Shown: in pieces, positions 41,062 through 44,673 of the stretch | How the letters are laid out: every line of letters starts with the position of its first letter | How positions within the stretch are numbered: position 1 is the first letter of the stretch | Notes under the pieces: model-generated | What the model saw: the letters and a program-made list of their open reading frames with translations, nothing else | Databases searched by the model: none | What the model was told of the DNA's origin: nothing | Program-made: the position numbers and the translations under genes | NCBI GenBank assembly: GCA_016786665.1 | Contig: JAEUVZ010000076.1 | Coordinates: 1-64,000, forward strand | Direction of reading: 5' to 3' | DNA: 64,000 nt | From: Flavipsychrobacter sp. | Lineage (GTDB): Bacteria; Bacteroidota; Bacteroidia; Chitinophagales; Chitinophagaceae

Positions 41062-44000
41062 TTGAGGTTTAGGATTGGAGTAATTTATATATGTATGTTT
41101 TTTGCAAGCCTGCTTGTAGGCTTGCAGGCTCATGCCCAGAAGACGGGCACTAATAAGCGTGCGCAGCAGATAATGGACTCTACCCGCAAAGCCCAGGAGG
41201 CGCTGCGGGCAGCCCAGCAGAAGGAGCGGGAGCGCATAACCGATAGCACCAAGACGGCCCGGGCACGTATTGCCGATAGTACCAAAGCATCGCGGGAGCG
41301 GATAGCCGACAGCGTAGCCAAGGTAAGGGCGCGCAAAGCCGACAGCCTGGCCGACATACGGAAATATAAAGACAGCAGGCGCTACAGAGACAGCGTAACC
41401 CGGGCACGGGAGCGGGTAGCAGACAGTATAAAGCAAGAGCGACAACTGGTACTGGACGCACAGAAGGCAGAGCGGCAGGCAATAACCGACAGTATAGTAG
41501 CGGTGCGCAAAGCGGCCCTGGATAGTACCCGTGCGGTGCAGAAACAGCGGAGCGACTCCCTGGAACTGGTGCGAAAGTATAAGGAAAGCAAACGATACCG
41601 GGACAGCGTGGGTATAGTGCGGCAAAACAGGATGGACAGCATAACGGCGATGCGCAAGCACGTAAACGATAGCATATCGGCGTACCGGAAGCACCTGACC
41701 GACAGCGCCACCGCCTCTCGCAAAGCAATACTGGACAGTACCATGGCTGTGCGCAAAGCCGCGGCAGATAGTATGACCGCCGCGCGTAAAGCCCGCGCCG
41801 ACAGCCTGCTGGTAGTAAAGGAAAAGCGCGATAAGCTCCGAAAGCAGGAAGAGGACAAGAAGATAAAGAAGATGAACCTGGCCCTGGAGCTGAAGATGAA
41901 GAAAAAGCAGTCGGAGTGGACCAATGAGAAAATGCTGAAAAAGAAGTGGTCGGCACCCCGGCAATTGGTACAGAATACCTTTACCCGCTATAATTATTAC
42001 TTCAATGCCCGGAATAAAATGGCTGAGGCGCACGCGAATATGGAGCGCGTGGTGCGGGAGAATTATGATACGATGATAGCCCTATATCCGTTCAATCCCA
42101 ACCGGGATTCCTCGCTGATGGCGGCGGATATGGACAGTATCATCAGCAAGGTATCGGTAGGGATACAGATACACGACCCTCGCACGAAGTGGGGTGATGA
42201 CCTCTACCTGCTGCTGGGTGAGGCTTATTACTTTAAAGGAGATTATAAGAACGCATCCATCGCGTTCCGCTACATAATAGGCATGGACAAGCGGAACAAG
42301 AAGAAGAAGGGTAGCAGCGGCGGGTATGCGCGACGCTCGAAAGAACAGGCCTCCATACTGGAAGAAGATAAAGAAACGGCGCTCGACTTCCTGAAACATA
42401 AGAGTGTGAATAACGATGCCATTCTCTGGCTCTCGCGGACATTTACCCAAGCCGGGCAGCCCGAGAACGGCGAAGCCGTGATAGACCTGGTGGCATCGGA
42501 CCCGAAATTTCCGGAGAACCTGAAAGGGAAGCTGGCTATGGCGCGCGCCTTCCTGATGCTGTACAATAACAACATTAAAGAAGCCTCTGACCAACTGAAG
42601 ATAGCCGCCAACGATGAATACCTTACAAAAGAGCAGCGTCAGCGGGCAGCCTACCTGAATGGCCAGATACTGCAACAGGATGGCAACTATGCGGCGGCTA
42701 CGGAAAGCTTCCAGAAGACACTGGACCTGCACCCGAACATAGACATGGACTTCTATGCCCGTAAGAACATAGCATTCAACACCATGTACTCCGGCAACGG
42801 GCAGGAGCAAGCCATCGCATCGCTGAAAAAAATACTGAAAGACTATAAATACCTCTCGTATTACGAACAGGTGTATTACCTGCTGGGACGACTGGCAGCC
42901 AACAGCGGCAGCTCTTCGGATGCGATAGCCTACCTGCAGAAGAGTACCGCATCCGCAAAATCTACAAAGAAGCAAAAGGCAATATCGTTCGCTACCATGG
43001 GTAATATTTACTACCGTGAGGGCGACTATATAGCGGCGAAGTCGGCTTACGACAGTTCTGCACTGCTGGCAAAGAACGCCCCTGACGACAAAGATGTGAT
43101 AGAGGCCGTTCGCCGCAGCCAGGCGCTGGATGCCGTTACAGGGCCCTATACCATCATAAAAACCCAGGACAGCCTGCTGGCGCTCGCCTCTATGAGCGAG
43201 AAAGAACAGCGCGCCGCTGTACGGAAATACCTGAGAGAACTGGAGCGCCAGCGGCAGGACAGTATCTTTAACGCCGAGAACGCGGGACTGAATAACCTGG
43301 TGCAAAATGACAATGTGAATATGCAGCAGGGTGGTGGTGGTGCCGGCTGGTACTTCTCTAACCCTACACAGATGAAAAAAGGCCAGTCGGAATTTAAGCG
43401 CCTGTGGGGCAATCGCCCGCTGGTAGATAACTGGCGGAGGACCTCGGCTATCGGCTTCGTGAGCAACGGCGCTAACAATAACAACGATAATGCCGACGAA
43501 ACATCGATAGACGAAAATGGCGTGGAGCTGGACGCTAACGGCTTCCCTACGGAGCAGAGCCTGCTGGCCGGCCTCCCCACCACGCCGGAACGCCAGGCCC
43601 GCGCGAACAAGCTGATGCAGAAGGCATACCTGGACCTGGGCGATGCCTATGTAATGAACCTGGAAGATTACCAACTGGCGGGTAAAGCGCTGGATACCCT
43701 GGTGGTACGGTATCCGCAGCACGAGGATAAACCGCGGGAGATATACCTGCGCTACATAATGGCTATGCGCCAGAACAAGATGCAGGATGCACAGCGGTAC
43801 AGCCAGCAATTGCAGCAGCAGTTCCCTAACAGCCAGTACGCCGCCCTGGTGAAACCCACCGAAGACGGCAACAACCTCTACAATACCGCACCGGGTAAGG
43901 AAGGTGTGGCCAACTACTACGACGCCACCTACAGCCTGCTGCTGCAGCGCCAGTATACCGAAGTGCTGGAGCGCATCAAGACGGCCCGCCAGCAATACAA

Positions 44001-44673
44001 AGACCCCCGCTACGAAAAACGCTTCCGGGTAATGGAAGGGGTGGCACTGGCCGGCTCCGGAAAGATGGAACAGGCCGATACGCTGCTGCGTGACTTTATA
44101 AAAGCCAATGCTACCGATACCTTACGCCCCTGGGCCGAGGCCGTGCTGGAGTACATAGCCAAAGACAAGCCGAAAACCCCTGTGCCGGATACCGCCAACA
44201 CAGGCACCGCTAAGCCGCTGCCACAGGTAACCAACACTACCATAAACACCAATACCGACATAGACGGAAACGTAACGATAGCACAGCCTTCCGGCGAAGT
44301 GCCGAAGATATTTGCCTATAAGCCCGAAAAGCAGCACTTCCTGCTCTTCTCGTTCCCCGGCATGCAAGGCAGGGCTATGGGCGTGAAGTCGGCCATAGGC
44401 GACTTCAATAATTTCCGGTATAAGGAAGAGAGCCTCAGTACCGGCATAGATATGCTGAGCAAGACCGAAGGCGTGGTGTACGTGAAGAAATTCACCAATG
44501 CGGCCAAGGCTAAGGACTACATGACGGCGCTGAGAGCGGCCAGCCAGATATTCCGCGAGTACCAGACGAGCGAATACCAGCTATTCATTATTTCGGAAGA
44601 CAATTACCAGAAACTCCTGTCGGACCACAGTACGCAGGCGTACCTGAATTTCTACAAGTTCTATTACAAATAG
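41062..44673 (+). CDS. SprE/PorW-like TPR protein with a long hendecad-repeat stalk
   Basis: A 1203-residue exported protein. Starting at TTG 41062 gives RFRIGVIYICMFFASLLVGL and cleavage near AHAQ; an ATG at 41095 would lack a basic N-terminus. Residues 39-258 are an unusual repeat with DS every 11 residues. Residues 300-1060 are TPR-like, beginning FTRYNYYFNARNKM and GDDLYLLLGEAYYFKGDYKNA, which matches SprE/PorW of the type IX secretion and gliding apparatus. Residues about 1085-1203 form the C-terminal domain with FLLFSFPGMQ, IGDFNNFRYKEESL and YQLFIISEDNYQKLL. The family predicts a periplasmic T9SS component; three T9SS cargo proteins lie in this window. No lipobox cysteine follows the signal peptide, unlike classic SprE. 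Confidence 0.75.
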   Translation: MRFRIGVIYICMFFASLLVGLQAHAQKTGTNKRAQQIMDSTRKAQEALRAAQQKERERITDSTKTARARIADSTKASRERIADSVAKVRARKADSLADIRKYKDSRRYRDSVTRARERVADSIKQERQLVLDAQKAERQAITDSIVAVRKAALDSTRAVQKQRSDSLELVRKYKESKRYRDSVGIVRQNRMDSITAMRKHVNDSISAYRKHLTDSATASRKAILDSTMAVRKAAADSMTAARKARADSLLVVKEKRDKLRKQEEDKKIKKMNLALELKMKKKQSEWTNEKMLKKKWSAPRQLVQNTFTRYNYYFNARNKMAEAHANMERVVRENYDTMIALYPFNPNRDSSLMAADMDSIISKVSVGIQIHDPRTKWGDDLYLLLGEAYYFKGDYKNASIAFRYIIGMDKRNKKKKGSSGGYARRSKEQASILEEDKETALDFLKHKSVNNDAILWLSRTFTQAGQPENGEAVIDLVASDPKFPENLKGKLAMARAFLMLYNNNIKEASDQLKIAANDEYLTKEQRQRAAYLNGQILQQDGNYAAATESFQKTLDLHPNIDMDFYARKNIAFNTMYSGNGQEQAIASLKKILKDYKYLSYYEQVYYLLGRLAANSGSSSDAIAYLQKSTASAKSTKKQKAISFATMGNIYYREGDYIAAKSAYDSSALLAKNAPDDKDVIEAVRRSQALDAVTGPYTIIKTQDSLLALASMSEKEQRAAVRKYLRELERQRQDSIFNAENAGLNNLVQNDNVNMQQGGGGAGWYFSNPTQMKKGQSEFKRLWGNRPLVDNWRRTSAIGFVSNGANNNNDNADETSIDENGVELDANGFPTEQSLLAGLPTTPERQARANKLMQKAYLDLGDAYVMNLEDYQLAGKALDTLVVRYPQHEDKPREIYLRYIMAMRQNKMQDAQRYSQQLQQQFPNSQYAALVKPTEDGNNLYNTAPGKEGVANYYDATYSLLLQRQYTEVLERIKTARQQYKDPRYEKRFRVMEGVALAGSGKMEQADTLLRDFIKANATDTLRPWAEAVLEYIAKDKPKTPVPDTANTGTAKPLPQVTNTTINTNTDIDGNVTIAQPSGEVPKIFAYKPEKQHFLLFSFPGMQGRAMGVKSAIGDFNNFRYKEESLSTGIDMLSKTEGVVYVKKFTNAAKAKDYMTALRAASQIFREYQTSEYQLFIISEDNYQKLLSDHSTQAYLNFYKFYYK
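41176..41835 (+). repeat. 33-bp (11-residue) tandem repeat region in the SprE-like gene
   Basis: The repeat encodes DS at residues 61, 72, 83, 94, then 110, 121, (DA) 132, 143, 154, 165, then 181, 192, 203, 214, 225, 236 and 247: a strict 11-residue period with two 16-residue units at 94-109 (DSLADIRKYKDSRRYR) and 165-180 (DSLELVRKYKESKRYR), 71 residues apart. At DNA level units vary in codon use, so selection acts on the protein. Confidence 0.85.

Follow-up and report, generated by a model that had tools for sequence, protein, structure and literature searches.

The window analysed here, a stretch of 64,000 nucleotides from Flavipsychrobacter sp. (contig JAEUVZ010000076.1), encodes a protein in which a signal peptide is followed by a long repeat-bearing stalk, a TPR scaffold and a C-terminal alpha/beta domain (Table 1). 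A preliminary description of this DNA had called the protein SprE/PorW-like and placed it in the T9SS, and the profile search agrees: it scores 416.6 bits against NCBIfam NF052312, over the curated equivalog cut-off of 250. Among proteins of known structure, its best match is F. johnsoniae SprE (8gl8_I). With the AlphaFold2 model as query, 8gl8_I was the top row in Foldseek (E 8.9e-19) and in VIA-align (Z 31.0, next row 24.7; 609 residues aligned, rmsd 16.0). The VIA alignment begins at model residue 265, which is window residue 291, and at chain residue 21 of 8gl8_I, so the region from the signal peptide to residue 291 is an N-terminal addition of about 260 residues, located at the end that bears the lipid in SprE. 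Judged from its sequence, the window protein is a PorW/SprE ortholog by descent and probably not a lipoprotein, a naming that follows from a pattern search in which no lipobox was found in it. In the same genome (3.5 Mb), SprA, GldM and GldK all exceed the cut-off in the profile search, and the T9SS tail signal Por_Secre_tail is matched 150 times (scored among 199 candidates), so the T9SS machine is in use. Several of the Por_Secre_tail matches are located in the window's own contig. At the other end of the protein, the C-terminal alpha/beta domain could be set beside D6, the domain of P. gingivalis PorW that binds PorN.

Table 1 The stalked PorW/SprE gene of the window and its parts
Feature	Coordinates	Strand	Basis
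PorW/SprE ortholog, 1203 aa, listed TTG start	41062..44673	+	NCBIfam NF052312; best PDB match 8gl8_I SprE
Signal peptide, residues 1-26, signal-peptidase-I type (..GLQAHA/Q), without lipobox	41062..41139	+	By eye from translation; pattern search
Distal stalk helix (predicted), residues 27-104	41140..41373	+	AF2; length free in relatives, DS register kept
17 predicted O-glycosylation motifs, D-S-[AILMTV]	41176..41808	+	Motif from PMC12871550, PMC8729774
Module 1, RKYKDSRRYR (100-109), predicted helix break S105	41359..41388	+	AF2; Ser conservation
Middle stalk helix (predicted), residues 106-175	41377..41586	+	AF2; 71-residue module spacing
Module 2, RKYKESKRYR (171-180), predicted helix break S176	41572..41601	+	AF2; Y173 and S176 invariant
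Proximal stalk helix (predicted), residues 177-285, last 40 residues K/E-rich	41590..41916	+	AF2; module 2-to-W296 distance
Conserved TPR scaffold, residues 291-1040	41932..44181	+	Aligned to 8gl8_I residues 21-758
C-terminal alpha/beta domain, residues 1092-1203, past variable-length linker	44335..44670	+	AF2 strands and helices

The stalk had been singled out for a DS dipeptide recurring every 11 residues over about 200 residues, and this 11-residue DS repeat is confirmed as real and far beyond chance. Starting with the Asp at residue 39 (nt 41176), 18 DS dipeptides occur across residues 39-247, and 12 of the 17 successive gaps are exactly 11. Two gaps are 22, each spanning one unit without DS, and two 16-residue units interrupt the spacing, one as a single gap of 16 and the other as 10+6, having a DS of its own. 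These interruptions are near copies of each other, as first described, and their modules, RKYKDSRRYR and RKYKESKRYR, start 71 residues apart. Lag-11 self-identity over residues 27-300 is 0.323, whereas 5000 shuffles averaged 0.088 and never exceeded 0.148. Twelve pairs of DS stand 11 residues apart, against a mean of 1.1 and a maximum of 6 when DS is kept as a token (5000 shuffles). The repeat finder proposed at the outset, run here as Tandem Repeats Finder, gave a single 33-bp array (41226-41313, 67% matches), so the repeat is mostly visible in the protein and not in the DNA. Within the repeat codons, Asp alternates between GAC and GAT, and Ser is written AGC, AGT, TCT or TCC.

The long charged stalk that the preliminary description placed between the signal region and the TPR domain is predicted by AlphaFold2 to be helical, not disordered, and residues 27-292 hold 71 K+R and 37 D+E (266 residues). 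In the full-length run, helices span 3-77, 80-148 and 151-259 (mature numbering; stalk pLDDT 49-72 by tens); with the stalk alone they span 5-78, 80-149 and 151-265 (pLDDT 89.1, pTM 0.31). Both runs break the helix only at or beside the module Ser residues, S105 and S176. The stalk is thus predicted to form three alpha-helical segments of about 75, 70 and 110 residues, interrupted only at the modules, with the pTM of 0.31 leaving straight, kinked and folded-back or hairpin forms indistinguishable. Over 198 stalk columns in 74 proteins there are 54 Gly and 2 Pro in total. Single alpha-helices of the E/K/R type are marked by dense Glu-Lys/Arg i,i+4 pairs, and the stalk units open with Asp and seldom with Glu. 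The mean hydrophobicity wave of each of the two main segments has its peak at 97.5-98.5 degrees per residue, the 11/3 value, and is down to half or less at 103 degrees. Period and wave run from module 1 up to a point some 45 residues short of the scaffold, and the last approximately 40 residues are without the 11/3 wave.

We surveyed the stalk in 117 genomes of the family (Chitinophagaceae). A PorW match was present in 111 (E 1e-20) and a stalk match in 27 (E 1e-4), each stalk match lying in a PorW frame except that of genome G108, in which the stalk sits on a 286-aa frame of one contig and the PorW match is on a different contig, from base 4 onward, a contig break. Reuse of the stalk as a module in other proteins was rejected on this ground, and no second stalk-repeat protein was found at E 1e-4 in the 117 genomes. 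The second stalk match in the window's own genome is weak (E 0.006) and overlaps a Skp homolog, which we take as helical likeness. A role for the stalk as a SkpA substitute was likewise ruled out, OmpH/Skp homologs being present in 117/117 family genomes. A PorW-family match with one in-frame TGA was also seen (G383:C17:14161-15180).

In a tree of 154 rows (FastTree, SH-like support only; a long-branch warning concerns L169 and L171), all 110 family rows form a single clade with support 99, and within it the 29 stalked rows form one clade, also with support 99, beside 81 other family rows. None of the 44 tree rows outside the family has at least 7 DS ahead of the scaffold. L046, L033, L117, L134, L149, L191 and 23 of L062-L091 are absent from the tree, and L080, L081 and L203 were dropped because they are without a PorW frame; L191 has a long upstream frame and is unclassed. 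Stalked named loci come from Taibaiella and Flavipsychrobacter, both Chitinophagaceae genera, from Chitinophagaceae, and from MAGs with looser or odd labels; these loci were the top 80 among 247 confirmed, which biases them towards close relatives. Against a possibility raised at the outset, the stalk is not common in PorW/SprE, with 27/117 family genomes and, by the DS count, 0/44 tree rows outside the family. The distribution fits, without proving, a single gain in the Taibaiella/Flavipsychrobacter branch of the Chitinophagaceae. By sequence, the best PDB match to the stalk had an E of only 0.22, and Foldseek with the stalk alone gave no match, which says little for long helices; no published description of such a stalk was found in the open-licence literature, a weak absence. 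What we describe is a clade-specific, strongly conserved variant of a known scaffold and not a new system.

The signal region noted earlier is present; by eye it is of the signal-peptidase-I type, and the pattern search shows no lipobox. PMC8754138 describes the lipobox as common to all PorW members. A lipobox-like Cys does occur in 44/44 tree rows outside the family, and 74/81 short (stalkless) family rows are without one. In the remaining seven short rows the signal sequence contains a Cys; four fit the stricter lipobox, and these four have Gln at a signal-peptidase-I type site within 5-7 residues. A lipobox-like tetrapeptide lies inside the signal sequence in 14 of 108 stalked rows (29 tree rows plus 79 loci, with some genomes counted twice). 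Family-wide, then, PorW/SprE is mostly without a lipobox-like Cys, contrary to the printed statement. We infer that the ancestor of the family lost the lipid anchor, and assign the stalk to one of the two main branches within the family.

Alignment of homologs, which had been suggested as a check on whether stalk length varies in multiples of 11, gave a mixed answer. With an HMM profile as the start-of-scaffold anchor, module 2 lies at offset 129 in 75/79 and module 1 at offset 200 in 68/79 of the named loci, taken from the best 80 of 247 confirmed and excluding L279, whose contig begins inside the scaffold. Module 1 of L244, L262 and L275 is at 200 with a substitution outside the search pattern; in two of the 79 loci a contig end cuts the stalk before module 1, and the stalk of L286 is too short for it. 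Several length changes are of 11 residues: L259 is 11 longer between the modules, L229 is 11 shorter below module 2, and L282, L285 and L289 (Taibaiella helva, koreensis and chishuiensis) are 11 longer below module 2, though also 18 longer between the modules. In 54 of 59 aligned proteins the spacing between the modules is 71 residues, and in 55 of them module 2 is 123 residues away from the conserved Trp (W296). As a length control in the same 59 proteins, several TPR segments are equally constant, for example 117 residues in 59/59, and other stretches have 11, 12, 18 and 30 distinct lengths, the 30 belonging to the stretch ahead of the C-terminal domain.

The length is free at the N-terminal end, and the proximal part is nearly constant in the main sub-branch. 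Above module 1 the length varies, down to about 20 residues of N-terminal helix in L045, and the period is nonetheless conserved, with 255/319 distal DS in the 11-phase and 28 more shifted by 5, as expected from one extra 16-residue unit. In the tree, 19/29 stalked family rows have both modules at the set offsets, and all 19 are in a main sub-branch of 22. The other three are L048, which is short with only module 2 in place, and L054 and L055, irregular within the sub-branch, where both modules stand at their usual positions but module 2 is altered. Less regular are the seven rows that make up two early branches (L050-L053 and L056-L058): module 2 is at 140 in L050 and L051, 136 in L052, 158 in L053, 156 in L056 and 154 in L058, and L057 shows neither module by pattern. 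Length steps here include 7, 25, 27 and 29 besides 11. A rule of steps of 11 only, tried for the whole clade, fails in these seven rows and holds in the main sub-branch of 22. The strict length lock is thus a trait of the main sub-branch. The earlier suggestion that the stalk may set a fixed distance in the T9SS or gliding machine stays plausible.

The 16-residue units are among the best-conserved stretches as well as the sole predicted helix breaks. The relatives compared are 41-66% identical. In 76 gap-free aligned proteins (the best 80 of 247 confirmed, minus L229, L282, L285 and L289, whose lengths differ and which were also excluded from the unit, codon, phase and hydrophobicity counts), conservation reaches 100% at Y173, S176, D181, S182 and two Arg columns (offsets -93 and -153), and 98% at three further Arg columns (offsets -71, -82 and -164). 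The S105 column of module 1 holds Ser in 94% of 74 proteins. Across 1060 units, position 1 is D in 90% and E in 3%, position 2 is S in 86% and T in 1%, and position 3 is L, V or I in 76%. D and S/T go together, both being present in 897 units, neither in 86 and one only in 77 (odds ratio 64). The odds ratio is 5.2 for D with a motif residue at position 3, 2.1 for S/T with R/K at position 7 (p 0.002) and 1.4 for the control pair of D with R/K at position 7 (p 0.28); the rows share descent, so these p-values should not be read literally.

The reading of the repeat as DS can be amended, since DS followed by a hydrophobic residue is the O-glycosylation motif of the phylum, given for Bacteroidota as D-(S/T)-hydrophobic (PMC12871550, PMC8729774). 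PMC12871550 reports that L, I, V, T, A, S and M are the commonest residues after S/T, that Glu replaces Asp never in B. fragilis and rarely elsewhere, and that the preference for Ser over Thr is slight. Strict motifs number 17 in the window stalk (Asp at residues 39, 61, 72, 83, 94, 110, 121, 143, 154, 165, 181, 192, 203, 214, 225, 236 and 247), against 8 in the longer rest of the protein. The units of the relatives agree with the motif in favouring Asp over Glu and in their third residue: 97% of the 897 D-[S/T] units have a third residue in [AILMTV] (L 296, V 233, I 166, T 64, A 56 and M 53, with S 14 and F 12 outside it). F. johnsoniae SprE is itself described as O-glycosylated, and the glycosylation as important for SprE stability (PMC10994853). 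We predict from the motif that the Ser of most units carries O-glycans, set in a row along the rod.

Two features of the units suggest that glycosylation is not the only demand on them. Even where D-[S/T] is missing, 87% of units have a residue of [AILMTV] at position 3, which is thus at least partly structural. The stalk units comprise 896 DS and 1 DT, against 713 DS and 275 DT in the rest of the same proteins, and Thr takes position 2 in 7/108 units without Asp against 1/952 with Asp; the near absence of Thr beside Asp indicates that Ser is needed as such. These patterns suggest that Ser likely has a second, structural role, or that the likeness to the motif is partly accidental or the motif reading mistaken.

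We propose, giving the idea an even chance, that the N-terminal rod of this exported PorW/SprE acts as a hinged helical strut bearing the predicted glycans. The rod would leave the scaffold at the position of the lipidated N-terminus of F. johnsoniae SprE, beside SprA at the outer membrane, and the strut would take over from the lipid anchor. Hinged, sugar-bearing and of set length, it would use the two Tyr/Ser modules to dock the scaffold to a partner lying a fixed distance away. Length changes of 11 residues may be tolerated because they keep the helix face. A more specific version, which we regard as doubtful, is that the lipid anchor was swapped for a molecular ruler of three locked helical segments with an O-glycan every three turns, in which sugars and docking modules would together keep a set distance between the translocon and a partner in the periplasm, be it ring, hub or cell wall.

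The same helices could be arranged otherwise. They might fold back at the modules into an antiparallel three-helix bundle of about 10-17 nm, making the stalk an extra folded domain and not a rod. Such a fold would account for there being only two breaks, both at 16-residue units that by arithmetic turn the hydrophobic stripe roughly 130-140 degrees, for the near-invariant Ser at each, for the similar lengths of the first two helices (74 and 70 residues) and for the locked length between the breaks. Against it, a Gly- or Pro-rich turn is lacking at the modules, the N-terminal helix varies freely and can be as short as in L045, and the pTM is low; we consider the bundle possible but unlikely. 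A comparable, tentative standing goes to the stalk as one strand of an intermolecular right-handed coiled coil, paired either with itself or with a different protein, much as in the peripheral stalk of a rotary ATPase. The hendecad period suits it, as do a position 3 that is V, I, L, M or F in 81% of units, a position 6 that is so in 56% and R/K at position 7 in 84%; rotary ATPases have right-handed stalks made by hendecads (PMC6131620), and a rotary motor is described for the T9SS (PMC9127263). Yet the seam would be thin, with position 10 hydrophobic (A, V, I, L, M, F, W or Y) in only 35%, P. gingivalis PorW is reported as likely monomeric (PMC8754138), and at E 1e-4 no second repeat protein turned up in the 117 family genomes or, bar the weak Skp-homolog match, in the window's own.

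We think it improbable that the stalk lies as an 11/3 amphipathic helix on the inner leaflet of the outer membrane, with surface binding replacing the lipid anchor. Its period, strongly basic composition and position at the lipid anchor of SprE would fit, but the mean Eisenberg hydrophobicity is about -0.38 with a moment of 0.19-0.22, the conserved Asp and Ser would go unexplained and a locked length is not expected of such a helix. A low-complexity spacer without precise function, born of repeat expansion, draws on the repeat structure, the one array found in the DNA and the loose early-branch lengths, and is disfavoured as very improbable by the locked length and invariant residues of the main sub-branch among relatives of 41-66% identity and by the 18 and 30 distinct lengths of other stretches in the same proteins.

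How the T9SS translocon ties to the motor and ring is not settled. P. gingivalis PorW is the proposed link from the translocon to the motor or ring, and its linking region is described as not conserved across all lineages (PMC8754138, PMC10994853). A length-locked arm at the outer-membrane end of the scaffold would be a natural variant giving a direct handle on translocon tethering, and the regular motif array offers a clean case for the role of the phylum's general O-glycosylation in a single protein. Together, length lock and motif array make the stalked PorW/SprE a good experimental handle.

One close comparison is with the short PorW/SprE proteins of other Chitinophagaceae, which have no stalk and are likewise mostly without the lipobox-like Cys; their linker, SEKTxxKKF..PRRxxQN, resembles SNEKMLKKKW..PRRxxQN. 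TolA domain II is a long charged periplasmic helix like the stalk, and differs in its inner-membrane anchor and its repeat. F. johnsoniae SprE (8gl8 chain I) shares the TPR scaffold over chain residues 21-758 (Z 31) and leaves no room for a stalk, its residue 21 aligning with window residue 291. It is described as an O-glycosylated lipoprotein (PMC10994853), whereas the window protein appears to have no lipid and the glycans of its stalk are predicted only. P. gingivalis PorW, named by the same NCBIfam model, is described with TPR arrays and a lipobox in PMC8754138, where the account of the protein mentions no stalk. The peripheral stalks of rotary ATPases (subunit b; E/G), likened here by description, also set hendecad helices in a rotary machine (PMC6131620), but they are built of two chains and belong to another machine.
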